DNA of 43,623 nucleotides from a virus. The notes under the pieces are model-generated. The model did no database searches. It had not been told where the DNA came from and saw nothing but the letters and a program-made list of their open reading frames with translations. The stretch lies in IMG/VR virus record IMGVR_UViG_3300044814_000103, positions 1 to 43,623 of that record; one strand, 5' to 3'. Shown here piece by piece: positions 5,352-43,621 of the stretch. Made by a program: the position numbers and the translations under genes. The stretch's first letter is position 1, and every line of letters starts with the position of its first letter.

Positions 5352-8008
5352 TCGCGATTGATACCGAAACGGAGCTTATCACACCGCGGGTGAAATGCCC
5401 GCGCTTGGTCTGCGTATCGGCAACCACAGAGGGATCTCCTGTACTTTTTAAGTGGGACGCCCCGGACGCTTTAGCTGTGTTGACGCAGTGGTTGAACCAA
5501 GACATTTTGATTTTTCATAACGGCGCATACGATATGGCGGTTCTTGCCAATGCGTATCCTGAATTGTTGCCTTTGATTTTTGCGGCTTACGATGCCAATC
5601 GGATCACAGATACGATGTTGCGGCAAAAGCTCATCGATATCGCGGAGGGCCGGCAACACCAGAAGTACTCGCTGGCGGCGCTATCCGAGCGCCTACTGGG
5701 TGTGCACCTCGAGAAGGAAGACACGTGGCGTTTGCGGTACGGCGAACTTCGGGACGTGCCGTTGGTCGATTGGCCGCCCGAAGCCCGAGACTATGCCATT
5801 ACGGACGCCACGACGACGCTGAAAATATACGAGGCCCAGGAAGCGAATGCCTCATATCTGGCAGATCAGCACCGCCAGTCCTGCCACGCGTTTTGGCTTC
5901 ATCTCATGTCCGTTTGGGGTTTCAAAACCGACCTCGCCAAGGTCTCCGCACTCGAGGCTAGTATTACAGCCGCACTAGAACAAATTAAAGGAGAATTAGT
6001 ACAGTGCGGTTTGCTGCGTGCCGACGGTACGCGGGATACGGCTGTTGCCAAGGCCAGGATGGCCCAGGCAGGCTCCACGAAGCTGACCCCCAAGGGAGCT
6101 GTGTCCCTGGATGATGAGGCCTGTCGGGCGTCTGGCGACCCGCTGTTAGTGCAGTATGCCGAGTACACGCATCTGACAGGATTGCTGGCCAAGGACATCG
6201 CGGCACTCAAGCAGGGAGAAATACACACAAGGGTAAATTCACTGCTCGAGACGGGCCGGACGTCATGCGGCGGCAGCGCGGAAGACGGCGGGTACAACAT
6301 TCAGAACCCCGCGCGGACCGGCGGTGTCCGTGAGTGCTTCGTGCCCCGATCTGGATATCTGCTCGTGGATGCCGACTTCGACGGCCTCGAACTGCGCACC
6401 ATGGCCCAGGTATGCCTACAGCTACTCGGTGAATCCAAAATGGCCGAGGCCCTTAACGCCGGGCTGGACCCACATTTGATGCTAGCCGCACAGTTGATGG
6501 ACACGACATATGAGGATGCCGCCGCGCGCTACCGGATGGAGGAGCCCGCGGCGAAGAGTAGCCGACAATTCGCCAAGTGTTTTCATCCAGATACGGAAGT
6601 TTTGACAAAGAGGGGGTGGGTAGCAATAAATACACTACAGCCCGACGTGGAAATAGCGACGCCACAACTAGTGGACGACCAAATGCAGATGCGTTGGGAG
6701 GTACCGCTTCGCTTGACAACACGACGCGCAACTGAGCTTGTACACTTAAAAAACGAAGGCATTGATCTTCGCGTGACTGTAGATCATCGTATGTGCGGCT
6801 GGACCGGCAAAGGCGCATTTCAGGAATTCACGCCGGCACGTTTGTGTTTGTCGCGATATTGGCCTAATGCCGGACAGCTTATGGCGGACGAGTACCCTTT
6901 CGATTCTACGCTGCTGAAGCTGGCTGTGGCGACGCAGGCGGACGGTTCCTACTCGGGGCGTTGCATACGTTTTGGATTTACCAAACCACGAAAAATTGCC
7001 CGCTTTCGCAGTCTATTTAGCGCGTATGCAGACATCCGAGAATCAAAAAATACGCAAGGCGTGACGCTTTTCGTGGTCGGGCGCGAGACTTCAGCAAAGG
7101 TGCGGGCACTACTGACCCCTAAAAAACAACTCTCGTGGGAGTGGCTAGAATTACCACCGCGCGCGATGCGTTTGGTGGTGGATGAGGCGCGGTGGTGGGA
7201 CGGGTCCTGTACAAGCGGGCAAACGCAGTATCAATACACATCCGTAGACCGACAAAACACAGACGTATTGCAGGCCATGGCCACACTGACGGGCCATAAA
7301 ACAAGACTTATAACAGAGGCGCGCACAAATCTGGCCCACCAAAATCCGTGGGTATTGTCGGTTAAAAACAGAGATCGGTCGCGCGGCGGCAACCTAGAAA
7401 TACACAAACTGCCATACGAGGGGGATGTGTTTTGCGTTACAACCCAAACGGATCTCGTTCTGGTTCGAGATGGTGGCATACCCGTAATCACACACCAGTG
7501 TGGGAATTTCGGGTTCGCGGGCGGCATGGGCGTTTCGACGTTCGTGCAATTCGCCGCCAACAATGGCGTTGCCTTGGATGAGGCAAAAGCGCGAGCAATC
7601 AAAGATGCCTGGATTCAGACATGGCCTGAATTCCTTCGGTACTTCCAGCGCATTGCCGCCATGACCCAAGCGGGTTTGTGTCAAATCGAGCAGTTGTACT
7701 CCCGCCGATGGCGGGGCGGATGTTCATATTCGCAAGCAGGAAACACAATGTTTCAAGGTTTGGGCGCAGATGCCGCGAAAGCCGCGGGTTGGGCCATAGC
7801 AAAAGCGTGCTATTTGCCTGGCAGCGTGTTATACGGATCACGTGTGGTAAATTTCGTACACGATGAATTTTTGGTCGAAGTGCCAAAAGACATCGCCGCG
7901 GAGTGCGCCGCTGAGATCGGGCGATTGATGGTAGAAGCCGCAAACGTTTGGATGCCGGATGTTCCGGCGAAGACAACCCCGAAGATCACAGATTGTTGGC
8001 AAAAATGA
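5342..8008 (+). CDS. Family A DNA polymerase with 3'-5' exonuclease, interrupted by an intein
   Basis: 888-residue precursor; 581 residues after removal of the 307-residue intein (413-719). Exonuclease motifs: D7-x-E9, D64 in NGAYD, and Y151-x3-D155. Polymerase motif A is D343-x-D-F-D-G-L-E350-L-R; motif B (O-helix) is R408, K412 then, across the intein, NFGFAGGMG; motif C is H840-D841-E842. Where E. coli Pol I has the O-helix Tyr766 this protein has Gly, a change I recall from other phage polymerases. The start is GTG 5342, overlapping the upstream gene by ten bases; it is chosen because the DxE exonuclease motif begins five residues later. The protein replicates the phage genome. It cannot be active until the intein is spliced out, since the insertion separates the O-helix Lys from its Phe. 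Confidence 0.93.
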   Translation: MPVIAIDTETELITPRVKCPRLVCVSATTEGSPVLFKWDAPDALAVLTQWLNQDILIFHNGAYDMAVLANAYPELLPLIFAAYDANRITDTMLRQKLIDIAEGRQHQKYSLAALSERLLGVHLEKEDTWRLRYGELRDVPLVDWPPEARDYAITDATTTLKIYEAQEANASYLADQHRQSCHAFWLHLMSVWGFKTDLAKVSALEASITAALEQIKGELVQCGLLRADGTRDTAVAKARMAQAGSTKLTPKGAVSLDDEACRASGDPLLVQYAEYTHLTGLLAKDIAALKQGEIHTRVNSLLETGRTSCGGSAEDGGYNIQNPARTGGVRECFVPRSGYLLVDADFDGLELRTMAQVCLQLLGESKMAEALNAGLDPHLMLAAQLMDTTYEDAAARYRMEEPAAKSSRQFAKCFHPDTEVLTKRGWVAINTLQPDVEIATPQLVDDQMQMRWEVPLRLTTRRATELVHLKNEGIDLRVTVDHRMCGWTGKGAFQEFTPARLCLSRYWPNAGQLMADEYPFDSTLLKLAVATQADGSYSGRCIRFGFTKPRKIARFRSLFSAYADIRESKNTQGVTLFVVGRETSAKVRALLTPKKQLSWEWLELPPRAMRLVVDEARWWDGSCTSGQTQYQYTSVDRQNTDVLQAMATLTGHKTRLITEARTNLAHQNPWVLSVKNRDRSRGGNLEIHKLPYEGDVFCVTTQTDLVLVRDGGIPVITHQCGNFGFAGGMGVSTFVQFAANNGVALDEAKARAIKDAWIQTWPEFLRYFQRIAAMTQAGLCQIEQLYSRRWRGGCSYSQAGNTMFQGLGADAAKAAGWAIAKACYLPGSVLYGSRVVNFVHDEFLVEVPKDIAAECAAEIGRLMVEAANVWMPDVPAKTTPKITDCWQK
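6578..7498 (+). mobile_element. Intein with LAGLIDADG homing endonuclease inside the polymerase
   Basis: Residues 413-719 of the polymerase frame. Block A is CFHPDTEVLT with the nucleophile C413; block B has the T-x2-H pattern in VTVDHRM; block F is GDVFCVTTQTDLVLVRDGG; the end is ITHQ followed by extein C720. The last intein residue is Gln (719), not the usual Asn. Two degenerate dodecapeptide motifs, ending AVATQADGS (D534) and VDEARWWDGS (D620), mark a LAGLIDADG endonuclease. The insertion point is between K412 and C720 of the O-helix, one of the most conserved sites in family A polymerases. The stretch looks more A+T rich than the flanking polymerase, consistent with separate origin. Confidence 0.92.

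Positions 8009-22234: not shown

Positions 22235-22235
<1 letters not shown>
19935..22235 (-). CDS. Virion-associated lytic transglycosylase-type protein
   Basis: 766 residues. After an Ala-Pro repeat linker (71-88) comes a lysozyme-like domain (about 120-250): LLQSEGGTNPLAANGKHKG with catalytic E146, then VFQW, the pattern of SLT-type transglycosylases that open a local hole in peptidoglycan during DNA ejection. The rest is long helical and coiled-coil regions (Gln, Ala, Lys, Glu rich, about 300-560) and a helical C terminus ending in acidic repeats. In T7 and P22 relatives such domains are carried by internal or tail proteins. It lies between the S74-domain gene and the 997-residue protein and shares TAATG junctions. 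Confidence 0.72.
21979..22026 (-). repeat. Hexanucleotide repeat coding (Ala-Pro)8
   Basis: Eight tandem hexamers (GGTGCC, last ones GGTGCT, on the + strand) code for eight Ala-Pro pairs in the transglycosylase protein. A similar run of about seven hexamers (23250-23291) codes Ala-Pro in the next gene. Such runs change length by slippage and serve as stiff linkers. Confidence 0.85.
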
Positions 22236-23343
<1,108 letters not shown>

Positions 23344-23344
<1 letters not shown>

Positions 23345-24453
23345 TAGTAACGCACTCCATAATTTTCTGGCATTGGTACAATCCGCTGTTTTGCTCGCAC
23401 ATCGGAACTGCCGATAGCTGTACCGATACCGCCGCCCGCGGCAGCGCCCCCAGCCGTTCCCGCGCCAGGTGCGATGACGGTCCCGACAATCGCCCCCACA
23501 CCAGTACCTATGGCGCCCGCAATGCCAGCACGTTCGTCCGCTTCGCGTTTTGCATCTGCCGCGGCTTTGGTTCGTGCCGCTTCGTCCAGTGCAATTTGAC
23601 CATGCAGATTTTGCAGATCCGTACTTTGATTGTTGTTCTCGCCACTCTGCATGGTGTCTTCGCCCAGCTTGCTGTATCCCATGTTGGTGTTCATACCGGC
23701 ATTGAGGGCACCCGCGGCGGCGGTATTGTAGCCCGTATTAATTTGGCCGTATTGATTAGCCGCGCCAAAATTCTGATTCATGGCATTGACATCACCCGCA
23801 CGCATGGCTGTCGCCCCCGCCCCTTGAGCGCCGATGCCTTGGAGTTGTTGCCCGCGGAATGCCGAGGCCTCTTGTGCTCGTTGTCCTGCGAATTGTGCCA
23901 AACCCGGATTGGCGGCCTGGGCTCCGCGCATTGCCATGGCGTTCTCGGCCGGATTGCGTCCGGCTGTGGCGGCGCCCATGCGCGCACCCATGGCTGAATC
24001 GGCTGCTTGGCCCATCTGCGCCTGCGCAACTGAAGCAGTAGGCCCCTGGGCGTAGAACTGCTTCATCCGGTCGAGATTCTGTTGCTGTTGCTGACGCGCA
24101 TCTATTTGTTGGCCATAGTTGCCAGCTGCCGCAGCGCGCAGATCGGCGGAAGTTTTATCGAGGGCATGCCCCTGGGCAAGATACCCAGCACCTAAGGTAC
24201 CAAGCGCGGATTGAGCCGCCTGTCCTTGATCATAGAGCCCCCCCGAACGCCCTGGCAGAATAGGCAGTGGGGCAGGCGGCGGTTTGGCCGCTGCCGCCGC
24301 CGCATCGCGAGCCGCTTGAGCGGTGGCCAACTGATCAGCGGTCGGCGGCAACATAGGCGCCGGCGCGTGCTGATCCGCAAACTTACTGGGATTCGTTTGT
24401 CCGCCCTGTCGCCCACCCACCTGGCCGGGATCTCGATCGCCGCCACCTAACAT
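23344..24453 (-). CDS. Internal virion protein paralogue B with truncated S74 motif
   Basis: 369 residues, mostly Ala/Gln/Gly-rich helix with regular AAQ and MGAR-type heptads (about 100-290), a Gly/Ala-rich hydrophobic segment (AGAIGTGVGAIVGTVIAPGAG), and a C terminus SDVRAKQRIVPMPENYGVRY. The last 20 residues copy the first part of an S74 chaperone domain (SDxRxKxxI) and then stop. It shares a KQFYAQGPTASVAQAQ segment with the next gene (KFYDNGPGPSAAQAQ). Probably an ejection or tail-core protein; the function is inferred from neighbours. The stop shares a base with the ATG of the 22235 gene. Confidence 0.6.
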
Positions 24454-24454
24454 C

Positions 24455-25543
24455 TTAGTAATTCTCCGGCATAGGTAGGATGCGTCGTTTCATGTGCACG
24501 TCGGAGCTTTTATCCGTATCCTTACCACCCGCGATTTTTGCTATACCCGCGACGCCAGAGCCGACCCCACCGACTATGCCGGCAGTGGTGTGAGCACTAA
24601 GATCATTCATTTGCGTCGCATACCCCATTCTCCCAAGCTGTTCGCTAGTTGCGCCGGCTGCCATCGCATTCATATATTCGGTTCGTAGGTCATCCTGATG
24701 CGATGCCGATCCGGCAGCCTGGCCCGCATACCCCAAGCCCAGCTCCTGTCCCTGGCTGGTGGTCGTGGCGCCCAGCTTGCTCATATCCAGTCCCTGGTTA
24801 GCAGCATTCACACCCCCGGTGATGTTGCCGCTCATCGTGCTCAAATCCCCCGAGCGCACGTTCCCCAAACCCGCCTGTTGGGCAGCAAGTGCCGCTCCTT
24901 GCTGCGTACGCCAATCCGCCGCTTCTTGAGCTCCGAGTACGTTCGACTGCTGTGCTGTCGTTTGATTCTGCGCAGCGTTTTGAAAAGCCAAATTGCGCGA
25001 AGCTGTGGGATCAACACCACCGCGGGCGCTGCGACTCAGCGCCGTGTTTTGCGCCTGTGTCGCCGCATTGCCTTGCTGCAACTGCGCCTGGGCTGCTGAA
25101 GGGCCCGGCCCGTTGTCATAAAACTTTTGGAGTTGATTCAGGCTGTCGATCTGATTAGCACGATCGGCCCCCGACAATGCCGAATCTTGCTGAGCATTGT
25201 TTTGGTAGCCAGCCTGATTGCCACCTGCGATCATCCCACGAATGCCGAGATCATTACTGATCCCCGCCATTGTCCCCTGTGCCGCGCCTCCTGTTTGATT
25301 GAATAAACTAGAGCGCGCCGCGGTGGCATCGGAAATGGCTCCTTTGGTTTGTGCCGTACCTTGGGCGGATCCGCCTACAAGCGCGTTGTTGGGGGCTGTC
25401 CAATTATTGACCTGGCCCCCATTCGCGTCCGTAGTGATAGAGCCCGGAGGGGCCGTGGTATGATCCGTCGGTGCATAGGTGCCGGGCGGCCCGCCGGTTG
25501 GTCCCGTTTGCCCAAGTAGTGCCCAAGGAGGTAGACCCGGCAT
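24455..25543 (-). CDS. Internal virion protein paralogue C with truncated S74 motif
   Basis: 362 residues; same plan as its neighbour: Pro/Gly-rich N terminus, Gln/Ala-rich helical region, a Gly-rich hydrophobic segment (IVGGVGSGVAGIAKIAGG) and a C terminus SDVHMKRRILPMPENY, again an S74-like start cut after about 16 residues. The pair are clear paralogues. ATG 25543 has GAGAGGG upstream and a candidate promoter at 25556-25584. The 48 bases between it and the 1123-residue gene hold just this promoter. Likely a virion protein delivered with DNA (inference). Confidence 0.6.
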   Translation of the reverse strand: MPGLPPWALLGQTGPTGGPPGTYAPTDHTTAPPGSITTDANGGQVNNWTAPNNALVGGSAQGTAQTKGAISDATAARSSLFNQTGGAAQGTMAGISNDLGIRGMIAGGNQAGYQNNAQQDSALSGADRANQIDSLNQLQKFYDNGPGPSAAQAQLQQGNAATQAQNTALSRSARGGVDPTASRNLAFQNAAQNQTTAQQSNVLGAQEAADWRTQQGAALAAQQAGLGNVRSGDLSTMSGNITGGVNAANQGLDMSKLGATTTSQGQELGLGYAGQAAGSASHQDDLRTEYMNAMAAGATSEQLGRMGYATQMNDLSAHTTAGIVGGVGSGVAGIAKIAGGKDTDKSSDVHMKRRILPMPENY

Positions 25544-28500: not shown

Positions 28501-28963
28501 CAAACAACGTGCCAGATACGTAATCGGCGTCTTGCCAAGCCTCGACCAAATATTTATTGGCGTAAGCTACGTCGCAGGTCATAACCTGCCCGGAGGTGTT
28601 GCGCGCCGTAACATAACGCCGAACGTCGCTGATTGTGCTCAAGCAACTGGCTTGCTGCGCTTGTGTAAAAAGGGGCTGCGTGGTCAGGGTTTGGTTGTCT
28701 TCTCGAGCAAACCACCCAGTCGTGGCGGGGAAACCCACGGGACCTCCGACGTATACGGAGAAGCGCGGACCAAAGTTCGCGGCGGCGAGTGCGAGTGGGG
28801 GGGAGGGGACGTGCCCTACCGTCTGATATCCCTGTCGTACGCCGACGCGTGCGTCCTTCAAAAAGCGAGCATTAGAAAGCGTCGTAAGTCCGCCTTCGGG
28901 CAAGATCTTGGGATCGATGCCTTCGGACAATCCCTGTATCAGGGGGATATGCAGTTCACCCAA
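25592..28963 (-). CDS. Large tail protein, probable nozzle/tubular type
   Basis: 1123 residues, almost all beta strand with many Tyr, Trp and Gly, no coiled coil. The N terminus (PLIQGLSEGIDPKILPEGG, LSNARF, RQGYQTVG) fits the opening of podovirus tail nozzle and related proteins, which begin with an FxQGxDxK, LxNxxF and RxGY pattern and form a beta-propeller hexamer at the tail tip. The C-terminal 150 residues include a GDPAPPDTGSGAYYLNTTTGQVFQK module like the YYLDxxTGxVY units of the collagen-like fibres. It overlaps the glycosyltransferase gene by eight bases. Function from pattern and position. Confidence 0.65.
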   Translation of the reverse strand: MGELHIPLIQGLSEGIDPKILPEGGLTTLSNARFLKDARVGVRQGYQTVGHVPSPPLALAAANFGPRFSVYVGGPVGFPATTGWFAREDNQTLTTQPLFTQAQQASCLSTISDVRRYVTARNTSGQVMTCDVAYANKYLVEAWQDADYVSGTLFGVGLSVRSAISHDVVHREQTDATGHAPKCVAIGDKLLTFYVTSDFLWTAIVDTNNPTGDAVIVNILTPASGKGYLYDVAPYDDTKCLLVYQKSATVVEWGTVDGTGFYTAVDSFTIAADAYLTITANYGFSSSRPIAIGYIEAGAVKYRTYLITGGTLASATIGTGGLGFPVIGPSPNFDWVMAWHVREVTGAGSTGTNVWAPGYLAPRLVGFLYPVSKPFVGPEGVAMWCVSDVIAEDQGTGTYKLIAIESVAQPNTPFAVKGAVCEAVACQLTALPGYFQEYNPLVGVFSDPRRFCILAPMSADQVPTSDFLLVSYVALLPVLSRLGGLPTTGQFGADLVRFDSGPLIDTCLPAHINGQLFLSGGRLKEFDGSNLYESGLAEGIENLVLVGQTEIQNPGGVLPPNSGTYLYTAIYSWIDDLGRRHRSAPAAPVSILFGPFVPWTSTDVYYSIPAFSDRIAIDGLTCSIQVEIYRTQANGSIFYLVTETPVPVGLLDGKVRIFHDHSTTDADLATHEVLYTQGRNGGLSGLLPNDEPPPCRMIWGGNDRLFMGGLEQTSAVQWSKLLFPGEPMAFAHNEAYRAYIDDDVSAIASLDGQWFIASTRGWWVVTGEGPDDTGAGSFSSPQRIPADVGCLSQRSIVEIPEGLLFQAAADRIYLMPRGGGAPVWIAQAVRTTLAQFPVITAARLLPDSNLVYFICVGADSHKFALLIYDTRAKQWMTDILTQDNRLWCLDRFDDHVVLSGIYEPAGYEDRFTGPVIPVSMQCTTGDIRPFGLQGRGRVRKVVVLGESASVFSSTLQIEVSYDSGQTWLESSTNTITPTAAGEPFYVEHMVVKVKGTNYRLRLTIAPVLPDSPLYRLGFPPPLGDTQNVWLDLTTNLIYPPPGTSGLPLNSGIGDPAPPDTGSGAYYLNTTTGQVFQKTPDGFVFVWTPVGFLYSGHPALIINAISLEHYPQSGTPRLANANRG

Positions 28964-29855
28964 GGGCCTCCAGGGCCTCTCTGGCTCTGCCCCCGGGGCC
29001 GTACACGCTCAAGTCGATGAAGCCGGTATCGCGTTTCGGCACGGGCAGATTTGCGGCGCGCTCCAGGCATTCACGACTGGCCATTAGCTGTCCAAGATAA
29101 AACCAAGGTTCCGCACGATGCGGGCGCATGTTGATTGCTTCGACCAACCGATCCATATCTCCGTACGCGCCAGCGCGTACGTGTGCCTCCCAAAACTCGT
29201 CGTGGTAGCCGACCCCTGCCGCAATGCGTCGTCCATATGTAGCCTTGGCTTCGGGGATCATACCCAAACAGGAATAGGTTTGAGCCAGATAAAAGAGGGT
29301 GCGAGGATCTTCGCCCTTGTGCAATTCCGCCTCAAGCAGCTTACGATCCTGTTGCCACCGCGCAGTACGATCCTCACCCGCACGGCCTGACCGCAGGGCC
29401 AGAGGAGCCAACTTGCCCTGGTTGCGAGGGATGATCACTTCATGGGTAACACCCGTATAGCGCCCACTGCCCGCGGGGCGCACCAAGCGCACATGGCCGA
29501 ATTTGAGTGCCCCAAAACGAATCGTAACCGCGTGCTCGGCATGTGTACTGCTGCGCAAGAAGGCGTGCAACATATCGCGGTCGGCCCAGGTCACAAGCTC
29601 GTCCCCCGATAAAAGTAGGGCCCACTCCGATTGACACAAATTCAGGGCGGCATTGCGCGTGGTGGAATAGTCCACGAAAGATCCGTGGTGGAGAGTACCA
29701 GGTATGTCCTTGAGCGTCTCCTGAATAAGATCCTGGGTCCCATCCGTCGAGCCGGTGTCCAAAATGTCCCAAGTATCAAGCAGGTGCTTACAGGACTCAA
29801 GCGTCTGCACGATGCCGCGTTTTTCGTCCCGGACAATCATATTAAGACTCAGCAT
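28956..29855 (-). CDS. Family 2 glycosyltransferase with TPR region, within the fibre genes
   Basis: 299 residues. The N-terminal GT-A part has MIVRDEKRG, LDTGSTDGTQD and a LLLSGDEL motif as the metal/donor site, typical for GT2 enzymes of the WaaE/SunS-like group; the C-terminal half has TPR-like helices (LFYLAQTYSCLG, WFYLGQLMA). It lies directly downstream of the long collagen-like fibre gene (29857) and upstream of the nozzle gene, in the same operon. TPR-bearing GT2 enzymes often glycosylate proteins, and a modification of the Thr-rich collagen triplets is a reasonable inference; host-glycan modification is the alternative. Domain call firm, target unknown. Confidence 0.8.
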   Translation of the reverse strand: MLSLNMIVRDEKRGIVQTLESCKHLLDTWDILDTGSTDGTQDLIQETLKDIPGTLHHGSFVDYSTTRNAALNLCQSEWALLLSGDELVTWADRDMLHAFLRSSTHAEHAVTIRFGALKFGHVRLVRPAGSGRYTGVTHEVIIPRNQGKLAPLALRSGRAGEDRTARWQQDRKLLEAELHKGEDPRTLFYLAQTYSCLGMIPEAKATYGRRIAAGVGYHDEFWEAHVRAGAYGDMDRLVEAINMRPHRAEPWFYLGQLMASRECLERAANLPVPKRDTGFIDLSVYGPGGRAREALEALG

Positions 29856-29856
29856 A

Positions 29857-31934
29857 TCATCCCTGACATATCACATCGACCTGACCGCGTCCACCGGCAC
29901 CCCCTGCGCCGCTTGGTCCGGTGAACACGGCCGCGCCGCCGCCACCACCACCCCCGCCACGATCGCCGCCCGCTCCGCCAATGAAGCCAACGCCTCCCGT
30001 CCCACCGCCACCACCGCCGCCGCAGCCGCCACGTCCAGCGACGGATGCGCCCGCCACGCCGGGGTTATCAATAGCACCTCCCGCGCCGCCGTTGCCGACA
30101 AACGTACCATCAGAGCGCGCCCCCGCAAAACCTCCCGCACCACCGGCAGTCGCCGCCGACCCGTTCGTCGTCCCGCCACCGCTACCACCACCGGCGCCAC
30201 CAAAAAGTGAATTACCGCCTTTCAGTCCGGCGCCGCCGCTGGCAGCCTGACCGGCGCCACTACCTCCGCCAAATACAGCCGGTTGTCCATCCGTGCCGGC
30301 GTTGCCCGTGCCGGCGCCTTCATAGCCGACACCTTTCATGTTCGCCGTGGCCCCTTGATCGGTCTGGCCTCCGCCGCGTATAAGCGCGCCCGAACCGACG
30401 CCACCGGCTTCAATCGCGCCGCCACCAGAACCGCCCTGTTGCGTACCACCTGCGCCGCCACCGTACGCTGACACAAAAGCACCAAACCAAGAGTTGCCGC
30501 CGACGCTTCCTGCGGTCGGCGATGATGTAGAGGTGGCACCCCCCGCGCCGCCTGCCCCCACGCTACCGGCGACGACGGCGCCGCTGCCGCCAACCTCAGC
30601 AAAAGTGAATGTCTTTTCGACGAATGCGCCGCCACCGCCCGCGCCACCGCCATTGCCACCACCAACGGCCTTGGTGCCAGACGCGCCTCCGCCGCCGGCT
30701 GCCCAGCACCTAACTAATACACTCGTATATGCGCCTGTAGGTAGCGTACAGTTGAAAGAACCGGTCGCGGTAAATGACTGCGCGTTGTAAAGAAGGCTGC
30801 CATTAGAACCCGTGGCGCCGGTCGGTCCCGTCGGGCCTGTGGGACCGGTCGGTCCCGTCGGACCCGTGGCACCTTTGTCGCCCGTAATATCAACACACCA
30901 GAGACACTCGTCGGTGTTTGCTATATCGGGCGAACTTTCTTCAATCTCAACGACGGTGTATTCGCGATATCCTGTGTGTGAGATCCTCGCAGACATCGTA
31001 AAATAAACGAAACGAGTCGGATCACTTTTCTTGACAAATCGAAAACGCGCTTTCTTTGTTGAGGTCGAAACATCGAGAGAATCGAGTACGCTCGTCAGGT
31101 CGTTGCCGAGATTGTCTGTTGTGGAAACATAGATCGCCGTCACATCGGAAAACGGTGGGGTTGCGTTGAAGCGAAACTTACCGGCCCCGGGATCTGCATT
31201 TGCCGTGGTGTTGTCGTAGATGTAATCGAATGTGAAAGCCCCACCAAATGCGCCGGTGGGTCCAGTTGGGCCTGTGGCCCCAGCTGTGCCGGTAGCACCA
31301 GTAGGTCCGGTGGCACCGGCAGCCCCAGCAGTGCCGGTAGCGCCAGTCGGGCCTGTGGCCCCAGCAGTGCCGGTAGCACCAGTAGGTCCGGTGGCACCAG
31401 CCGCCCCAGCAGTGCCGGTAGCGCCAGTAGGTCCGGTAGGTCCGGTGGCACCGGCCGCCCCGGCAGTGCCGGTAGCGCCAGTAGGTCCGGTGGCACCAGC
31501 AGCCCCAGCAGTGCCGGTAGCGCCCGTGGCGCCCGTGGCACCAGCAGCGCCAGCAGTGCCGGTAGCGCCAGTAGGTCCGGTGGCACCAGCAGCCCCAGCA
31601 GTGCCGGTAGCGCCGGTAGGTCCGGTGGCACCAGCAGCCCCAGCAGTGCCGGTAGCGCCCGTGGCGCCCGTGGCACCAGCAGCGCCAGCAACGCCGGCAG
31701 GTCCAGTCGGACCAGTAACCCCTGCGCCAGTGGCACCCGTGTCGCCGGTAGGTCCGGTTGGCCCGGTCGGGCCAGGAGAGCCCGCATCCCCTGAGATGTT
31801 CGCTACGATATCATACAGGCCAAAAGCCTTATGATAAACATTACCCGTGTCATCATCGAGATAATAATCCCCATCCTTGCCCAAGCAGTGATCGGGCGGC
31901 CCGGTGCCGTCGCGCCAAACAGAACTGGTGCAAA

Positions 31935-31938
<4 letters not shown>
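29857..31938 (-). CDS. Collagen-like fibre with glycine-rich adhesin domain
   Basis: 693 residues. Residues 7-50: a WRDGx[18 protein letters not shown] module. Residues 50-230: long Gly-x-y collagen region, mostly Gly-Ala-Thr and Gly-Pro-Thr. Then a beta domain (about 230-350), a second short triplet run (GPTG x5), and from about 395 a glycine-rich C-terminal domain ([21 protein letters not shown], then many GGGxGG runs) ending [11 protein letters not shown]. The last domain fits the glycine-rich phage adhesin fold, related to the polyglycine-II sandwich tip of T-even gp38. Likely a trimeric receptor-binding fibre. Gene, repeats and domain order are seen; receptor role inferred. Confidence 0.8.
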
Positions 31939-34234
<2,296 letters not shown>

Positions 34235-35708: not shown

Positions 35709-36989
35709 CTAAGCCATCGCAACTCGGCCTTGAAAGCCTGGGGCCTTGACCTGGAATGCGGGATAGCAAGTCAGACGATACTCATAGTCATTCGAGGCAG
35801 CGAGGCGGAGCAGGTCCGTCCCGTCCTGGTTGATCACACCCGGAAATCCTGTGTAGGACTTCGCCTCGATATAATCGAAATTCACGGCGAAGGCTGCGTT
35901 GAAGGTACAGAAGCGGTCCGACCACACATTGACCATTCCACCAGCGGTGCCGAGTTCGATCTTCTGGAAGTTGAATCCAGCGACCTTCTCACCAAGGGGA
36001 CGATTACCACGCGACTCGAGCGAGTCCGCGAGGTCCTGCCATTTCTCGGGGTGAAGGAAGACATCCGTCGGAGGCGGCGCAGCCGCGCGGCCAGACATCC
36101 GAGCCACGAGCCGCTTGATGCGCTGCTCGTTGTTTGCACCAGCAATTTCAGTAGCCGTGAGGCGCACACCCGAAAGAGCCGTGATGTCAATCGTGCGATC
36201 GACGTTCTCGTACACGGTGGCCGTGGGGTCCGCTGCCGGAACCCAAGCACCAAGGCCGAGGACGATGCGGGTGAAGGTCGCGGCCGAAGAGGCCCCGAAA
36301 TCACCAAGCTTGAAAGCATACATCGTGCCCGTCCAGCTGGCGGGGGTGCCGGCCACGCCCGTCGCCGTCGTAGACACCGTAAAGGTGCCGGCGTTGCGGT
36401 TGACGGCAATGACGTAGCCGATGCTGCCCGAACCCAGGAGGGTGTCGGATGCGGTCACGCCGGTCCCGGCCGAGGCCTGGAGCTGCATACCGACATAGAT
36501 GAACACCGAATCGTCAGGCTGGAGCAGTGTACAAACACCGGTCGAGATGGTAAAGCTGCCGGGGGTCACAGAATGGCCCGCGTCGCCGATGAAGTAGTTA
36601 CCCATCGTGTCGCCGAACCCCTCATAGAGGCGGTCGATCTCAGCGGTCTGGTCCTTGAAGAAGGCCCCGACGTTGTCGCGGCTGGCGGCAATCACCTTGT
36701 CAGCGATATCCACCACACCGTTGTAGTCGCCGAACGACGACATCCAACGCACACCCTTGAGGTTGCCACCACCACCGGCTGCCGTCGCGATAATCTGCGC
36801 ATTGGCGAGCGTGGAGCTGGTCCCCTGCGGGTTGGCGTAAATGACCGGGGTCACCCAAGGATCACCCGAGCCGAGGCTCTTTTTAACCTTGGCATAGAAA
36901 ATGCGATTCTTGATCGTAAGGCTGGTAACCTGCCCGGGATTGTAGTACTGCTTAAGAAACGGCGCGAACGTCGTCATCGATGATGCCAT
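35709..36989 (-). CDS. Major capsid protein
   Basis: 426 residues. Features of phage major capsid proteins are the location after the scaffold gene, a Met-Ala-rich start, N-terminal segment (FLKQYYNPGQ), long spine helix region (about 80-120), a beta-rich insertion rich in Gly, Ser and Thr (about 135-245), and a C-terminal half with a FLHPEKWQDL segment and a regular beta/alpha mix expected of the HK97 fold. AGGA precedes ATG 36989. Codon use looks strongly biased to G/C third positions, as for highly expressed genes. Position and size make this the clear candidate. Confidence 0.82.
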   Translation of the reverse strand: MASSMTTFAPFLKQYYNPGQVTSLTIKNRIFYAKVKKSLGSGDPWVTPVIYANPQGTSSTLANAQIIATAAGGGGNLKGVRWMSSFGDYNGVVDIADKVIAASRDNVGAFFKDQTAEIDRLYEGFGDTMGNYFIGDAGHSVTPGSFTISTGVCTLLQPDDSVFIYVGMQLQASAGTGVTASDTLLGSGSIGYVIAVNRNAGTFTVSTTATGVAGTPASWTGTMYAFKLGDFGASSAATFTRIVLGLGAWVPAADPTATVYENVDRTIDITALSGVRLTATEIAGANNEQRIKRLVARMSGRAAAPPPTDVFLHPEKWQDLADSLESRGNRPLGEKVAGFNFQKIELGTAGGMVNVWSDRFCTFNAAFAVNFDYIEAKSYTGFPGVINQDGTDLLRLAASNDYEYRLTCYPAFQVKAPGFQGRVAMA

Positions 36990-37001
36990 GTGAATATCCT
37001 A

Positions 37002-38144
37002 TTAAAGGTTGCGAGCTAGCTGCTCAGATCTCGCCATCCGGGTGTACCGTTCCAAGATTTTCTCTTGGGTCTCGGGGGTCCAGGGGCCATTTAGATCAGG
37101 TGCTGCTTCGGTGGGTTGCGTGTGTCGTAGCGTTGTGGTGGCCGCTTGCGCGGAGTTATTACCATTTGCCCTAGGTACTTGGGTGGATCCAGCTTGAGCC
37201 CTGGCGGCCGGTGGCGCTACGACGTCACCATAAAGGTCATCCCAAACTATCTCAGCCGCTTCGATCGTATCGATCGTGGTCTGGGTTTTGCGGTCATATG
37301 CTTGCTGCTGGACGGCGAATACACGCTGTACGAAGGCAGGCTTTACAGCCACCTTCTCAAACTGTGGCACGGCTTTCAATTCGGTCGAGATGTCGGCAAT
37401 CCAAGCTTGTTGTGCTTGTTGGTAACGCAGCTGGCTGTGCTCGGCCTGCAAACGCTCTTGCTCAGCTCTCATCGCCGCACGTTCCTCAGCGCGCTCGCGC
37501 TTGAGTTTTTCGATCTCTTGCACAAGCTTAGGATCAGACTGGCCGGGGGTCTCGTGCAGTTGTGCAATCAACTTACGCTGAAAGGTTTCGGGGGTATCGC
37601 CCGTAGTAAGTTGCAAGAACTTGGCGAAATCCCCGGCCAGGTACGCTTGTGCTCCTTCAACGAAAGGCATGACCTGCCCAAGGGCGGTCTTGGCCTGAGC
37701 CACGTGCGAGGCGGCCTCAGCCTTGGCAGTGGCCACTTCCGTGCGCGCCTCAAGCACCTGGCGCTTGACCGCTTTCCAAGCCTTTGTAGTCGGCTCGACC
37801 TTATCAATAGGAATGCCCGCGGCCTCAAGGGCCTCGGTGATTTTACCTTCGTTGTAAAGGCGGCGAATCTTCGCTAGCGAACCGGGGGATTCCTTTGGCT
37901 CGTCTTTGGCAGGCTCGGCCTTGGCCGCGGCGGCGGGTTCGGTCTTATCGGCCTCGGCTGCATTCTCACGGTCACGCGCTTCTTGGACGGTCCCGGCTTC
38001 TTTCAGCGCGGCGTCCAGGGCTTTCTGAAAATGCTGCTCCGTACCCGGCTCGGCCACTACCTCGACCGCGGCAGGCGCTTCGACCGCGGCAGTTTCCGCA
38101 ACGGGGGCGGCTTCGGCGACGGGCGAGGTGACGACTGTCTCCAT
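37002..38144 (-). CDS. Scaffolding protein
   Basis: 380 residues, highly charged and helical. The first 90 residues are Ala/Glu/Pro-rich and disordered; about 95-330 form long helices (KLKRERAEERAAMRAEQ core) and the end has a basic helix (LERYTRMARSEQLARNL), as in P22- and T7-type scaffolds whose basic C terminus binds the capsid protein. It sits between portal and capsid genes, the usual place. There is no ribosome site before ATG 38144; a promoter -10 box ends seven bases before it, so the mRNA may be leaderless. Confidence 0.82.
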   Translation of the reverse strand: METVVTSPVAEAAPVAETAAVEAPAAVEVVAEPGTEQHFQKALDAALKEAGTVQEARDRENAAEADKTEPAAAAKAEPAKDEPKESPGSLAKIRRLYNEGKITEALEAAGIPIDKVEPTTKAWKAVKRQVLEARTEVATAKAEAASHVAQAKTALGQVMPFVEGAQAYLAGDFAKFLQLTTGDTPETFQRKLIAQLHETPGQSDPKLVQEIEKLKRERAEERAAMRAEQERLQAEHSQLRYQQAQQAWIADISTELKAVPQFEKVAVKPAFVQRVFAVQQQAYDRKTQTTIDTIEAAEIVWDDLYGDVVAPPAARAQAGSTQVPRANGNNSAQAATTTLRHTQPTEAAPDLNGPWTPETQEKILERYTRMARSEQLARNL

Positions 38145-38187: not shown

Positions 38188-40200
38188 TTATTGCGCGGGT
38201 GGGGGGCCTGCTGGTGGGGCGCCCGCTGGAGCGCCCGGTGCCGGCTGTCCTTGATTGACCAAAGCCTGCACGCCTGCGGAAGAGCCTTTCATAGCTGCTC
38301 CTTGTTCAGCGGCCACGTTCGTAAGCGTGGAAATAATTGCGTCAGTTTCGGTCATGAACTTTTCATACCACTGAAGGTTGAACTGTGGCGCATTGCCCAT
38401 CTCGGCGTCCAAATAGGCCAGGCCCGTTTGCAGAATACAATCGGTCAATACTCCGACTCCGAGCCAGCGTGGAGGTGCTCCTTTATAACGAAAGGCACCG
38501 GAGTCCAAATCTTCCTGCGTGGCATCGGCCCACTGGTCAATACACTTCTCCATCCACGAATGGGCCGAATTAGTCTGCCCGAGTTCTTGATCGATATCCT
38601 TCGCTTGAATCACGCGCAAGTAGGCTTCTTTCGACATGAAGTTGCGATCAACCAACTCTGTTGCCAGGGCCAGGCGATCGGCCGGGGTGTTCACCAGGCC
38701 ACTGACACCATACACCTGAAGGTGGTATTGCGACTCGTCGAGTTTTACTTTAGACCAATGGAGGTCTTCAAAATAGTCCCCACCGGGCCACTTGACAACG
38801 ACATCCTCACCGTGAGCCTCGGCGAGTTCTTGCATTGCGGCAATGATCTGGCGTGGTAGATCTACGGCCAATGTCTTTTCATAATTTTGCCACTGTATGG
38901 CAAACCGTTCGGATCCGATATCACGTATCTCGCGGAGTGCGACGCCTGAGTCGATGCCGGGTTGTTTGACCGCGGCGGAGTCTTGCTGGCTGACGCCCGA
39001 GGATTCGTGCGCCCACTGCTGCAATGCAGAGGCCCATTGGACCGAGCCTTGAGAAACAACATCGGGCACGCGAAACGTCGGCTCGGGTGTGCCGGGTTTA
39101 CGTTCAATGATAATACACGGGCGGTTGTCTTCAAGGTCTTCGCGATCGATTGAACCCTCTTCGCACATAATGACCATGTTGGACCCAAGCGTTTCCGCCA
39201 TAGCCCGACGTTGAATCGCGGCATTGAGCTCGTCGCACAAACCAGCAATGTTTTCCACAAGGCTGGTGCCGTAAACGCCCATAAGATGAGGCTCCCAGGT
39301 TGAGCCAAGCAACGGGAAAAACGGACGGATCCAATCCTCTCCCTTACGTTGGCCCTTGCGCACTGTCAAATCAATGCCTGCATTCGTGCCCGATGACGCC
39401 AAGATGATGGAGTGCTTACCGGGTGAGTCGGGGCTGGGTGGCAATCGCCAAGCTTCGCGCACCTTGATCATGCGCCCAAGCGCGGTTTCGTATCCATACA
39501 GCAAGCCGGATTCGTGGTCATCGGCGTCCAGTCCCTGTGCCGCCATGATTTCTTCACGACGCTCCGGAAACTGTTCAGCCAAAAGATAGCGATCAGCGCC
39601 GTACACATGGAAGAGGTTCTGCGGTTCACCGTAACGAGCCTCGTTGGGATCTACCAAAACCTCCCAGGGCAGCACGCGCTGTATGCACACGCGCTTGAGC
39701 ACGGGATCTGCCCACACTTTGAGCCACCCCGAATCCATCACACACAAATCGCGGAACATCTGCAAGCCAACCGCGAAGCCGTCAGTCTGCCCGCCTTGTC
39801 GTTGAAGCATGACCGCGTCGATGAACTTCTCGAGTTTCTTGGCACGCCGGCGCAAGGCCCACGTAGATTCCGAGCAACAGAATTGCGCTCGCGGTCGCTG
39901 CTTGCCGGCTATCTTCGCGATGGCAGTATTGACAATCGCACGAGCCTCATTCAGCCGCACGCGATCATAATGCTCCCCCGTATAGGGTACCGATTTCAAG
40001 TACGCCGCAGGATACAAACCACCGAGGCGCTTACCCTCATAGATCTCGAGGTTCTCGAGGCTCTGCCGCCGGCGTTCTTTATGCAGCGTCTCGAGATGGT
40101 TGCACGTGGCGATTACCGAGGCGGCGCGGTCCGCCTCTTTGTCCAGTGTGTGCCATAGCTCATAACCTTCAAGGCCCGTATCGGAGGCGGAGTCCTGCAT
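38188..40200 (-). CDS. Portal protein
   Basis: 670 residues, the usual length for podovirus portals. It has helical N terminus, a WAD- and LPWEVLVDP-type segment in the first third, a beta-rich wing, and a long helical middle with NAAIQRRAMAE, an ALREIRDIGSERFA helix, and a Pro/Ala/Gly-rich C-terminal tail. Twelve copies would form the ring through which terminase pumps DNA. It is flanked by scaffold and small genes leading to terminase. ATG 40200 has no good ribosome site (AGG lies too close); a TATACT box ends six bases upstream. Confidence 0.85.
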   Translation of the reverse strand: MQDSASDTGLEGYELWHTLDKEADRAASVIATCNHLETLHKERRRQSLENLEIYEGKRLGGLYPAAYLKSVPYTGEHYDRVRLNEARAIVNTAIAKIAGKQRPRAQFCCSESTWALRRRAKKLEKFIDAVMLQRQGGQTDGFAVGLQMFRDLCVMDSGWLKVWADPVLKRVCIQRVLPWEVLVDPNEARYGEPQNLFHVYGADRYLLAEQFPERREEIMAAQGLDADDHESGLLYGYETALGRMIKVREAWRLPPSPDSPGKHSIILASSGTNAGIDLTVRKGQRKGEDWIRPFFPLLGSTWEPHLMGVYGTSLVENIAGLCDELNAAIQRRAMAETLGSNMVIMCEEGSIDREDLEDNRPCIIIERKPGTPEPTFRVPDVVSQGSVQWASALQQWAHESSGVSQQDSAAVKQPGIDSGVALREIRDIGSERFAIQWQNYEKTLAVDLPRQIIAAMQELAEAHGEDVVVKWPGGDYFEDLHWSKVKLDESQYHLQVYGVSGLVNTPADRLALATELVDRNFMSKEAYLRVIQAKDIDQELGQTNSAHSWMEKCIDQWADATQEDLDSGAFRYKGAPPRWLGVGVLTDCILQTGLAYLDAEMGNAPQFNLQWYEKFMTETDAIISTLTNVAAEQGAAMKGSSAGVQALVNQGQPAPGAPAGAPPAGPPPAQ

Positions 40201-40327: not shown

Positions 40328-40503
40328 TCCGAGGGTGAGGAAGAGCATGCTTTGTGTAGGGCCGCTTTATGGCAGGCGTCGCAATGTTGAGGACCTTCAT
40401 AGTATCGCGCCTTGACGTCGGCTTTGATATAACCACAACTGGCACACCTTTCGCCTGCTAGCTCCATGGGGTAACCGCCGGCGCTAATCCAAAAGCCGTT
40501 CAT
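40324..40503 (-). CDS. 59-residue zinc-ribbon protein
   Basis: From ATG 40503, overlapping the stop of the GroES-like gene as ATGA. C20-x2-C23 and C41-x2-C44 (with H45 next) make a zinc ribbon of 18-residue span. The longer frame to 40674 runs through the GroES-like gene and is a shadow. No specific partner known. Confidence 0.6.
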   Translation of the reverse strand: MNGFWISAGGYPMELAGERCASCGYIKADVKARYYEGPQHCDACHKAALHKACSSSPSE

Positions 40504-41237
40504 GTGGCCTCGAAAACGCCCGCCACTTGATAGGCTTGCACAACGGTCATGACCGCGCCCGCGACAGCAATCTGAAAGCCGGCGCCCGCGAAGCACAACT
40601 CGTCGCCGGGTTTGACCGGCATGGGTCGACGCGCCAGCTCGGGCACGCGACCCTTGTCTTGCTTCAAGCACCATGGACCCTCGCCGACTCCTAGAACCTC
40701 CCAGCGATCAGGCATAGCCTTATTGCCCGTGGCGTCAGGCTGACCGGGCATATAGATACCACCTGTTGATTTGCGAACTGCATCAGCTTCTTTGGTGAAG
40801 ATATAGTCGTGGAGAGGCTCCAAGGTCTCGGGGCCACTGGCGTCTTTGTGGATGATGGCTAGGATCGAATAATCCTGTGCAAGGTTCAGGAAGCCCCCAT
40901 TGACCACGACCGGTACAACGCCTTGCTGCGCAAGCACTACATCTCCGGGTGCGCAGGACATTGGCTTACGCAGGAATACGTTCTGATGCAAATCATCAGA
41001 TACATCAAGAAACGTACCTGGACCGACGGCTAGCACTTCATAACGACCGGTGCCACGCGACTGGGTCTTTTGTATATCGCGATCGGGACGGTGCTCGCGT
41101 CGGGCTTTTTCTGTTTTGAGGGATTCGTATTCTTGCCCCGCCTTAGGCAGGATCAGGCCGCCCTTGGTGACCTCCTCATGCTCGATTTCGGGTGAAAGCA
41201 ATACCCAGTCATTCGTCGGAACCAATCGCTCACTCAT
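40500..41237 (-). CDS. Double GroES-like co-chaperonin domain protein
   Basis: 245 residues with two GroES (Cpn10) folds in tandem. Unit 1 (about 3-130): PTNDWVLLSPE, mobile-loop EEVTKGGLILP (21-31), YEVLAVG (66-72), CAPGDVVL (95-102) and the C-terminal SILAII (124-129); it carries an extra 30 residues after the mobile loop. Unit 2 (about 138-244): LEPLHDYIF, loop VRKSTGGIYMP, WEVLGVG (179-185), VKPGDELCF and QVAGVF. GroES caps GroEL during folding; T4 gp31 replaces it for the capsid protein. Here it lies between terminase and portal, which suggests capsid or portal folding (inference). ATG 41237 overlaps the C2H2 stop. Confidence 0.8.
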   Translation of the reverse strand: MSERLVPTNDWVLLSPEIEHEEVTKGGLILPKAGQEYESLKTEKARREHRPDRDIQKTQSRGTGRYEVLAVGPGTFLDVSDDLHQNVFLRKPMSCAPGDVVLAQQGVVPVVVNGGFLNLAQDYSILAIIHKDASGPETLEPLHDYIFTKEADAVRKSTGGIYMPGQPDATGNKAMPDRWEVLGVGEGPWCLKQDKGRVPELARRPMPVKPGDELCFAGAGFQIAVAGAVMTVVQAYQVAGVFEAT

Positions 41238-41530
41238 TGTGCATCCTTTTGAGCTTGTGCTCGCTTACCTAATACCCCATGTGAAAAGCGGCGATGTGCC
41301 GCCGCGGCGGTTGTGTTGGCGAAAGTCTCGTGGCACTCGGGGCACTCGGCCTCCGTGATACGTACCATGAAACGTATCTGCGACATTGGCACTACCATAT
41401 GTCCGAAGGAAATTGTCTGATCAGAAGCGTTAAACTCGATCGGTCCCACGGACTCCATCCGGATTTCGTCCGTGGATGTGCCGTCCTCCATTTTCATCAG
41501 CGATGAAAATCTTACCCAGGTCAAACGCAT
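41234..41530 (-). CDS. C2H2 zinc-finger protein
   Basis: 98 residues. The C-terminal third holds C63-x2-C66, a 12-residue loop with F70, then H79-x4-H84: a classical C2H2 finger. It is followed by a basic tail (GKRAQAQ). The first 60 residues are a small beta-type region (MVVPMSQIRFMV). Single C2H2 fingers in bacteria and phages usually bind DNA (Ros-type) or proteins. It is in the terminase-portal interval. The start, ATG 41530, has GAGG seven bases upstream and overlaps the preceding gene by ten bases; an alternative ATG is 41497. Confidence 0.65.
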   Translation of the reverse strand: MRLTWVRFSSLMKMEDGTSTDEIRMESVGPIEFNASDQTISFGHMVVPMSQIRFMVRITEAECPECHETFANTTAAAAHRRFSHGVLGKRAQAQKDAQ

Positions 41531-41769
41531 TGTGCCCGCCTCCGCCTTTTTAGCAGATTCTTCGTTGCATTGTATATGGCCGCCTTGTGATCATCATCCA
41601 CGGCGGCATATTCCTCGAAAGCCGCAGCATTCATATATTGTACTACTTCTAGCGGGTGTGGCGCTTTCCATTCCTGTCGCTTCGCTCGAGCCTGCATGCG
41701 TATGGCCCGAGGCGCTTGCGCCAGCGCTCGGCGTCGAGTAAGACGGTTGGGCATGAACGTAGTATACAT
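41521..41769 (-). CDS. Small basic protein after terminase
   Basis: 82 residues from ATG 41769, which shares a base with the terminase TGA (TGATG). The N-terminal half is very basic (NRLTRRRALAQAPRAIRMQARAK), the middle helical and acidic (AAAFEEYAAVDDDHKA) and the end again basic (LLKRRRRAQ). A DNA- or terminase-binding accessory is possible. I do not call it the small terminase because no HTH is visible and it lies after, not before, the large subunit. Confidence 0.55.
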   Translation of the reverse strand: MYTTFMPNRLTRRRALAQAPRAIRMQARAKRQEWKAPHPLEVVQYMNAAAFEEYAAVDDDHKAAIYNATKNLLKRRRRAQCV

Positions 41770-43322
41770 CACTCGGGATCGAAATACGACCAGTTTTTTG
41801 CTTTGGCTGCTTTATTTGCTTCTTTGTCTTCCATGCGGGCGTGTTTGCGGGCTGAGGCGAGGGCCTCCGCTTTTTCCTCAGCTCGTAGCATAGCCTCGTG
41901 TTCGGGCGTCCCGAGCTTTGGCTTTGGTGTCGTGGGGGGTCGACATCCCATGGACAGCACTCGCGCAATTGCCGGCGCGTAGTCGCAGTGTCGGCCGTCG
42001 GGCGTTTTGAGCAGTACGATAGTAACCCGTGAGGATACTTTCTTGCGGATGCCAAGCAGATCATTGCGCAGCACGTGGTCGGGCGGTAGCTCGACCTCGC
42101 CATCAGCGAACTTCGTGGCGAGCGATGTGAACAAATCGATATTCTCCTCACGTGTGGATGCGATATCGTACAAGTAAAGCCTGTGGCGTCGTGCGATGTC
42201 TTTATTAGCATCGGCTGCATGTTGATCGGTGGCACAGCGGTCTAGATGGTAGTCGCGCAGGATCTGTGCCTGCTCGGCCAATACGGCGTCGGGTGATAGA
42301 GGCTTGACCTTGGAGCCAATCCACTCCTTGGCAAAGACGATACGTTGATGTGGGGTTTCATGGTACAAAGAGCAAACGACCAACGTCCAGGCATTGCCCC
42401 GAGTAGCCGGATCCATTGCCGCCGTGTAGGTGTGGCCTTCGACATAAGGCAGGATTTCTTCGCACCGCATGGCTGCATCTATGTGCGCGGCGGGGATGAG
42501 CGCCGTGTCTTGATCTGCCCACACCGCGTCAAACTCGCGACTCGCGGCATCGGGATCTCGGAGGCGCAGCTCTTCTATGACCCCGGGACTTACGGTAACG
42601 GAATTCATTGCCATGGTGGGGGCATGACAAACCAGCACTTCTCCTGGTTTACCAAAATGCGTTCGCCATAGATTGTACAATAAACCAGAAGGTCCCATAG
42701 GACTCGAAATAATAAAACCTTGGCCACCCGGAACCAAACGTGTCGAGGCTGCACGCAACAGCTCCTCACCGTTTACAATGTACCCCGTGGCGTTATCGCC
42801 AAAAAACGCAACTTCTTCGAGTATATACCCGGCGAGCCAGGTACCTCGTAAAGCTACGGCGCCGCGATGTGCGGCTACGACGAGGATGTCTACGTGGCGG
42901 CCATCCTCGCGTCGCACGGTCATTTCACCCGACGTGGGTTCTCCAACCACCAAAGCTTTCAAGGCGGGGGCGGCGTTGACGGCCCCGGTCAGCAAGCGAA
43001 ACGTCGTTTCAGAATTAGCGACGGTGGGGGCACAAACGACCACACGGCTTCTTTCATGTAAAGGGAGCTTCGACAGGTCGGCGGTAAGTGCGGAATAGAA
43101 GGCAGCCGCCCCGGCGATCAAAGACTTACCACTTCTCACCCCGCAGATTAGAACCATCATTGAAGGGCGTTGGGTGGGCTCGATGCCAAAGTGTCGTTGG
43201 GCGTCCTCCGGAGACAAGCCGGTCGGTTTACCCTGAGATGCGCGGCAGATCGCGCGCTGTAATGGTGTCGCCGTGGTTAAACGAAACCCGTTGGGCGAGG
43301 TCAATAAACTCTCCAAATCCAT
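41769..43322 (-). CDS. terL: Terminase large subunit (packaging ATPase and nuclease)
   Basis: 517 residues from ATG 43322 (TAATG with the upstream HNH gene; GGGAG is nine bases before). Walker A CGVRSGKS (K66), Walker B LAGYILEE (E169/E170), and the nuclease acidic triad at D304 (AAMDPATRG), D366 (ATDQHAA) and D447 (CDYAPA). Terminase cuts concatemers and pumps DNA into the head through the portal. The ATG at 43337 would add five residues but sits in the HNH gene. A small terminase is not visible and may be upstream of the window. This is the firmest anchor of the late operon. Confidence 0.92.
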   Translation of the reverse strand: MDLESLLTSPNGFRLTTATPLQRAICRASQGKPTGLSPEDAQRHFGIEPTQRPSMMVLICGVRSGKSLIAGAAAFYSALTADLSKLPLHERSRVVVCAPTVANSETTFRLLTGAVNAAPALKALVVGEPTSGEMTVRREDGRHVDILVVAAHRGAVALRGTWLAGYILEEVAFFGDNATGYIVNGEELLRAASTRLVPGGQGFIISSPMGPSGLLYNLWRTHFGKPGEVLVCHAPTMAMNSVTVSPGVIEELRLRDPDAASREFDAVWADQDTALIPAAHIDAAMRCEEILPYVEGHTYTAAMDPATRGNAWTLVVCSLYHETPHQRIVFAKEWIGSKVKPLSPDAVLAEQAQILRDYHLDRCATDQHAADANKDIARRHRLYLYDIASTREENIDLFTSLATKFADGEVELPPDHVLRNDLLGIRKKVSSRVTIVLLKTPDGRHCDYAPAIARVLSMGCRPPTTPKPKLGTPEHEAMLRAEEKAEALASARKHARMEDKEANKAAKAKNWSYFDPE

Positions 43323-43621
43323 TATTGCGTCTCCCATAGAAATTTGTGGGCGGCCAGATACGCCTTCATACGATCGAGAATTTCAGGGCTTTCTCGGGCG
43401 GCCGCTATGCCTAAGTTACACTCGCGACACAGCACCCCCCGCACCTGACCGGTATCATGGTTGTGGTCAACGTGTGTGTGCCTGCCTGTTTCTAATTTAC
43501 ACTGGCATATGGGGCAACAGCCCCCTTGTTCATTCTCTATGTCTTGGCGCTCTTCTATTGTAAGGCCGTACTTACTTTTTAGATTGGCCTTCATACTGTA
43601 ATGTTTTACTTTATCTGGATT
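43322..43621 (-). CDS. Endonuclease VII-like HNH protein, 5' end cut by window
   Basis: Open from the window end to TAA at 43322, 99 codons visible. A Met at 43594 exists, but the nine codons before it (NPDKVKHYS) are the usual linker that precedes LKSKYGLT in this family, so the true start is outside. It carries C-x2-C, VDHNHDTG with catalytic Asp-His, and a VRGVLCRECN zinc element. The copy at 13977 is a relative. Placed directly upstream of terminase, as HNH genes commonly are beside packaging genes; either a homing enzyme or a packaging-linked nuclease. Confidence 0.8.
   Translation of the reverse strand, partial: NPDKVKHYSMKANLKSKYGLTIEERQDIENEQGGCCPICQCKLETGRHTHVDHNHDTGQVRGVLCRECNLGIAAARESPEILDRMKAYLAAHKFLWETQ

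Follow-up and report, generated by a model that had tools for sequence, protein, structure and literature searches.

The window, meaning the whole stretch of DNA that was analyzed, is an entire linear IMG/VR record (43,623 bp) of an uncultivated bacterial virus. Near one end of it, a single 245-aa frame encodes two Cpn10 (GroES) units joined head to tail. The frame runs uninterrupted from an ATG at position 41237, and this ATG overlaps the stop codon of the upstream 98-aa gene (ATGA). The original prediction had the coordinates of the gene right and left its strand, which is minus, unstated (Table 1). A chance ORF or an assembly artifact was considered and is ruled out by the contiguous ORF, the coding-like GC content by codon position, the ribosome-binding site, and the overlap with the upstream gene. 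The product of that upstream gene is a zinc-finger-like protein (41234-41530, minus strand), and the two genes are translationally coupled.

In the order of transcription, TerL is followed by small genes, including that of the 98-aa zinc protein, and then by the double GroES gene, a small zinc-ribbon-like ORF, and the genes for the portal, a probable scaffold, and a probable capsid protein. This gene order, together with the profile matches of TerL and the portal, bears out the predicted placement of the double GroES in the head module between these two genes. No family match was obtained for the putative scaffold or the putative capsid protein. Neither GroEL/Cpn60 nor tRNA genes were found within the 43,623-bp record.

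Table 1. Features of the double GroES gene and the surrounding head module
Feature	Position	Strand	Basis
Tandem Cpn10/GroES protein, 245 aa, 26.6 kDa	40500..41237	-	Single ORF; PF00166 twice; PHROG 3188 per half
Unit 1 (residues 1-134)	40836..41237	-	PF00166, 21.4 bits; BLAST and hhalign to GroES; model
Unit 2 (residues 135-245 and stop)	40500..40835	-	PF00166, residues 139-241; Thauera/Azoarcus identity; 8wuc
Short linker, ~residues 132-138 (DASGPET)	40824..40844	-	Unit alignments
Unit 1 mobile loop, residues 21-62, GGLIL contact motif and 25-residue insert	41052..41177	-	Alignment; model
Unit 2 mobile loop, residues 152-178, GGIYM motif	40704..40784	-	5 residues longer than GroES (alignment)
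Unit 1 roof hairpin segment, 25 residues	40947..41021	-	Alignment
Unit 2 roof hairpin segment, 25 residues	40608..40682	-	Alignment
Probable ribosome-binding site, AAAAGGA	41244..41250	-	6 nt before ATG (sequence)
Terminase large subunit (TerL)	41769..43337	-	phrog_2, E 1.2e-17; 27.6% over 460 aa to L207/L210 ORF
98-aa protein, C2H2-like/Phage_zn_bind_3 zinc motif	41234..41530	-	PF24071, E 1.6e-5, just under cut-off
Portal protein, 74 kDa	38188..40200	-	phrog_156, E 1.9e-8; portals of L209 and L210
Probable scaffold protein	37002..38144	-	Position and composition only
Probable major capsid protein, 45 kDa	35709..36989	-	Position only

Several other features of the record deserve mention. A family A DNA polymerase gene (5342-8008, plus strand) is split by a probable intein of ~310 aa (residues about 413 to 722). 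This element lies inside motif B (RQFAK / CFHPDTEVLTKRGW ... VITHQ / CGNFGF), and its last residue is Gln, not Asn. The region gave a weak match to TIGR01445 and also matched annotated ribonucleotide reductases of Salmonella phages. Two adjoining paralogous tail-region proteins (23344-24453 and 24455-25543, minus strand) are about 30% identical, and the gene next to them (22235-23344) encodes a C-terminal Peptidase_S74 chaperone domain. Two collagen-like tail fiber genes (29857-31938 and 32672-33862, minus strand) contain similar repeat stretches with 59-84% identity and are adjoined by a glycosyltransferase-like gene (28956-29855).

The whole 245-aa protein matched Pfam PF00166 in two stretches (41.6 bits; E = 1.3e-10). 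When the units were cut apart, units 1 and 2 scored 21.4 and 25.2 bits, respectively, unit 1 lying barely above the family cut-off of 21.1 bits. The phage GroES family PHROG 3188 matched either half alone (E = 7e-5 and 1.4e-4). The halves also aligned with each other over their full length at 25% identity (BLAST E = 1e-7), with an alignment score of 79 versus a best score of 59 among 5,000 shuffles. Unit 1 aligned with GroES over its full length (BLAST E = 1e-5; hhalign, 96%). Unit 2 was 39% identical, over its whole length, to the groES products of Thauera and Azoarcus, compared with about 30% identity to bacterial GroES for unit 1, and the closest sequence of solved structure was GroES 8wuc, matched by unit 2 (E = 1.8e-8). 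All of the motifs that had been read from the sequence at the outset (the mobile loops, the EVLxVG strand, the PGD turn, and the final strand) are there.

Structure prediction had been proposed as a check on this assignment. In the full-length AlphaFold2 run, the GroES alignment rows all fell on unit 2; the mean pLDDT was low (57.9), with unit 2 good and unit 1 partly formed. A model of unit 1 guided by GroES rows reached a pLDDT of 72.6, with mostly 83-93 in the barrel strands and <60 in the loop insert, which was partly helical. With this model, Foldseek returned the Cpn10s of M. tuberculosis, human mitochondria, E. coli, and Thermus (E = 1e-6 to 3e-5), and the TM scores normalized to the target were 0.68-0.79 for 1p3h, 4pkn, and 1wnr. 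The full model returned GroES, matched over unit 2, and the Cpn20 chain 7ekq_R was aligned with it across 161 columns. Thus, GroES was the nearest fold both for the guided unit 1 model and for the full model over unit 2. Because GroES rows guided the modeling, the unit 1 model is consistent with a GroES fold and is not independent proof of it. The presence of two GroES-like units in one chain, as originally claimed, is supported by the double PF00166 match, the likeness of the halves beyond that of shuffles, and the GroES folds nearest the unit 1 model, with the main weight on the sequence scores.

Loop and roof segments were compared by length across 94 further GroES domains aligned with the two units. 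From GG to EV, the loop segment has 14 residues in 91 of these 94 domains but 39 in unit 1 and 19 in unit 2, and the expectation that the units are unlike each other holds. An insertion had been predicted behind the mobile loop of unit 1; it is present, with a length of 25 residues after GGLILP and not 30. The loop of unit 2 is likewise extended, by 5 residues. The hydrophobic triad at the place where GroES contacts GroEL is kept in both units (GGLIL and GGIYM). The roof hairpin, overlooked in the original prediction, is 8 residues longer in both units, with a segment of 25 residues in each versus 16-17 residues in all 94 of the other sampled domains.

Relatives were sought in IMG/VR with the two units as an alignment, and three loci were found (L207 to L209; L210 is L207 extended). 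In L207/L210, one GroES with a roof of 26 residues is followed downstream by a TerL (E = 8e-33) and, in L210, a portal (E = 2.8e-41) homologous to those of this record. L209 also carries one GroES and a homologous portal (E = 1.5e-56). The single GroES precedes TerL in L207/L210 and L209, whereas the double GroES follows TerL here. The single copies in these distantly related phages suggest that the lid gene underwent duplication. Peptide-pattern scans of IMG/VR gave no close relatives of the double GroES, the portal, or TerL, and no GroES was found among the genes tested in the TerL-related phages Rctr16k and S-CBS4. Pattern scans for E. coli-like GroES in viral and bacterial genomes yielded 111 ORFs, all encoding single-domain proteins and none a genuine two-domain one.

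Two origins of the double gene were weighed. In a better-sampled tree including L207 to L209, units 1 and 2 formed a clade (96/84) within a phage group that also held these three loci (96/91). The branches are long, and the AU test left other groupings unrejected, such as a pairing of unit 2 with only L207. In the first, less sampled tree (96 domains), which was uninformative, the two units fell apart. That a phage head-module GroES was duplicated internally is the favored origin because the units group in the tree and share the 25-residue roof; it is unproven because the AU test rejects no alternatives and long branches meet. Alternatively, the double may have been formed by fusion of a phage GroES to a captured betaproteobacterial host groES, and the identity of unit 2 to the Thauera and Azoarcus proteins, the separation of the units in one tree, and the tolerance of the AU test for unit 2 with L207 would all fit such an event. 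We consider a fusion unlikely, however, as the roofs of both units measure exactly 25 residues, a length seen in none of the 94 other domains, and the better-sampled tree unites the two units.

Phage co-chaperonins had been described in the original prediction as single domains. This generalization is countered by GroES proteins of 187 to 200 aa encoded beside TerL (PHROG_13932), in which the N half is only a probable GroES-like domain. PHROG_13932, annotated as "co-chaperonin GroES" (200 positions), includes proteins of Cellulophaga phages phi18:3 and phi38:1 and of ctfjg026. The BFVD predicted structure of phi18:3 gp096, a 200-aa "Chaperonin cpn10," aligned over 198 columns with the model of the 245-aa protein, and the same fold search also gave an unnamed 304-aa protein with 210 columns aligned. 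The gene order in phi18:3 is gp096, a small gene, TerL, and portal, and the same place is filled by phi38:1 gp089 (194 aa) and the 187-aa ctfjg026 protein. A pattern scan of IMG/VR revealed at least 446 loci of the PHROG_13932 type. Among the 77 that were fetched, the proteins are 183-195 aa long and TerL lies 160-840 bp downstream in 75. Cpn10 is recognized in the C half (Pfam E = 8.5e-8; hhalign, 96%). The N half falls in no assigned family, gave no significant hhalign match (<5%), and has GroES-like features by eye. Members were located at L118 41458-42060, L206 348-932, and L124 3896-4459 and in L128 to L204. Cellulophaga phage phi38:1 (L205 2251-4374, L206 348-932) has its own GroEL with an adjoining single Cpn10, as well as the separate 194-aa GroES beside TerL. 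In PHROG_13932 phages, small genes also separate GroES from TerL, and these share no common family match with the 98-aa protein.

The PHROG_13932 proteins resemble the double GroES in their two-domain length, the Cpn10 nature of the C half, and a gene beside TerL and portal; their gene precedes TerL, whereas the double GroES gene sits between TerL and portal. The 245-aa protein gave no profile match to PHROG_13932 (hhalign, 9.6% over 14 columns). By sequence comparison, it lies outside this family, and its units bear a much closer likeness to canonical GroES. The genomic search proposed for the two-domain form in phages therefore had a mixed outcome: the IMG/VR pattern and alignment scans gave no second genome with the exact tandem, and two-domain-length proteins of PHROG_13932 are very common, their N half not reaching significance. 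The other phage GroES proteins that were fetched are all single. Xanthomonas phage PBR31 also carries GroES in its TerL-portal module, but as one unit ahead of TerL. In Thauera and Azoarcus, GroES is a single domain encoded adjoining groEL, in contrast to the double in a head module here. No tandem or double phage GroES was encountered in the literature searched; given PHROG_13932, the tandem form in phages is not wholly new.

As anticipated, chloroplast Cpn20 is the closest understood analogue, as both proteins are head-to-tail pairs of GroES units in one chain. Cpn20 cooperates with GroEL and substitutes for GroES in E. coli (PMC3542282). Like Cpn20 (7ekq chains Q and R), the phage protein has a short linker, two recognizable units, and the problem of fitting an even number of units to a seven-fold rim. 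This mismatch, previously presented as an open question, is a known one for which the Cpn20 work has supplied answers: concatamers of 6 and 8 domains are functional with GroEL, as are mixed rings of 7 domains, which are probably the native form in plastids (PMC5780408). PDB entry 7ekq contains one Cpn11, one Cpn23, and two Cpn20 chains and therefore seven domains. The Cpn20 gene is organellar, whereas the phage gene belongs to a head module and has the unit 1 loop insert and longer roofs in both units. Sequence closeness to Cpn20 does not extend beyond Cpn10 (7ekq_R, E = 0.49). The phage protein is thus at most Cpn20-like in its working and is not a Cpn20 member; a plastid origin does not apply because the gene lies in a virus record with TerL and portal.

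By analogy with T4 gp31 and RB49 CocO, the double GroES may be a phage-encoded alternative lid for host GroEL. During T4 infection, gp31 replaces GroES; its mobile loop has 22 residues versus 16, and through longer loops it enlarges the chamber for the capsid protein gp23, which at ~56 kDa is described as a little beyond the capacity of the GroEL-GroES cage (PMC6318259). The 74-kDa portal of the present phage exceeds gp23 in size. The longer mobile loop of gp31 is matched by the double GroES (39 and 19 residues versus 14). Unlike the double GroES, with two domains and larger roofs (25 versus 16-17 residues), gp31 and CocO are single domains without roof loops.

The observed features are two Cpn10 units, an operon context, an enlarged loop and roofs, single-unit relatives, and the absence of GroEL from the record. 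On this basis, the protein is probably a phage co-chaperonin that caps host GroEL, a covalent GroES dimer derived from internal duplication and engaged in folding head proteins. We infer its GroEL binding, stoichiometry, and substrates as follows. The double GroES would be made late, as an alternative lid for host GroEL, which must serve because no Cpn60 is encoded in the record. Both mobile loops would be able to bind GroEL apical domains. Following the Cpn20 precedent, the lid could be a seven-unit mixed ring of three doubles and one host GroES, or it could consist of three or four doubles, with one rim position empty or one unit idle (an eight-unit ring); the simplest forms would be three doubles with one host GroES and four doubles with one idle unit. 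The large loop of unit 1 and the large roofs of both units may alter the shape of the cage to suit late virion proteins of the same operon (TerL, portal, and capsid). Folding of the capsid or portal, as proposed originally, is plausible from the position of the gene, and GroES near TerL and portal recurs in PBR31, L209, L210, and the PHROG_13932 loci. The logic of gp31, which combines a bigger chamber with the absence of a roof, is opposite to a larger roof and speaks against this overall reading.

Other functions were also considered. One unit of each chain might take part in a seven-chain lid while the other, its loop altered, lies outside it or in a second tier and holds a specific phage protein or scaffold. 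Such a division of labor would suit the 25-residue loop insert of unit 1, the greater closeness of unit 2 to bacterial GroES (39% versus about 30%), and the PHROG_13932 N half, which has drifted far from Cpn10. It appears doubtful, however, given that the hydrophobic loop triad and the entire barrel are kept in both units and that the short linker suits neighboring ring places, as in Cpn20. The double lid could also occupy GroEL and block or divert host folding without helping phage proteins. A high-affinity co-chaperonin late in infection would indeed rival GroES, as gp31 displaces it in T4 (PMC6318259), but the gene is placed with the head genes and not with early ones, and the recurrence of a TerL-neighboring GroES across several phage groups points to assembly, which makes a decoy very unlikely. 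It is just as improbable that the GroES barrel has been reused as a head or connector part no longer working with GroEL: the gene does sit in the TerL-portal interval, a possible site of connector and head-completion genes, yet this concerns position only, whereas the GroEL-contact motifs are retained in both loops and the nearest folds are GroES only.

Beyond the co-chaperonin reading itself, we tentatively raise a broader possibility, to which we give less credence: the protein may be this phage lineage's own Cpn20, with duplicated, unlike units whose larger loop and roofs shape the GroEL cage for large head proteins, as a seven-unit lid mixed with host GroES or as an eight-unit lid, and with PHROG_13932 as a second, independent case. 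If so, covalent doubling of the lid would be a recurrent route. The surprise is lessened by Cpn20 and PHROG_13932 and is heightened by the canonical units, the common new roof, and the single-unit kin, which give a view of how the double may have arisen. In the literature searched, tandem GroES was described only from plastids and apicoplasts, where the symmetry is debated and many partners are mixed in. A phage version acting on ordinary bacterial GroEL would make the question of even units on a seven-fold rim testable in a simple system, and it would reveal one way in which phages enlarge or specialize the folding cage of their host to accommodate virion parts.
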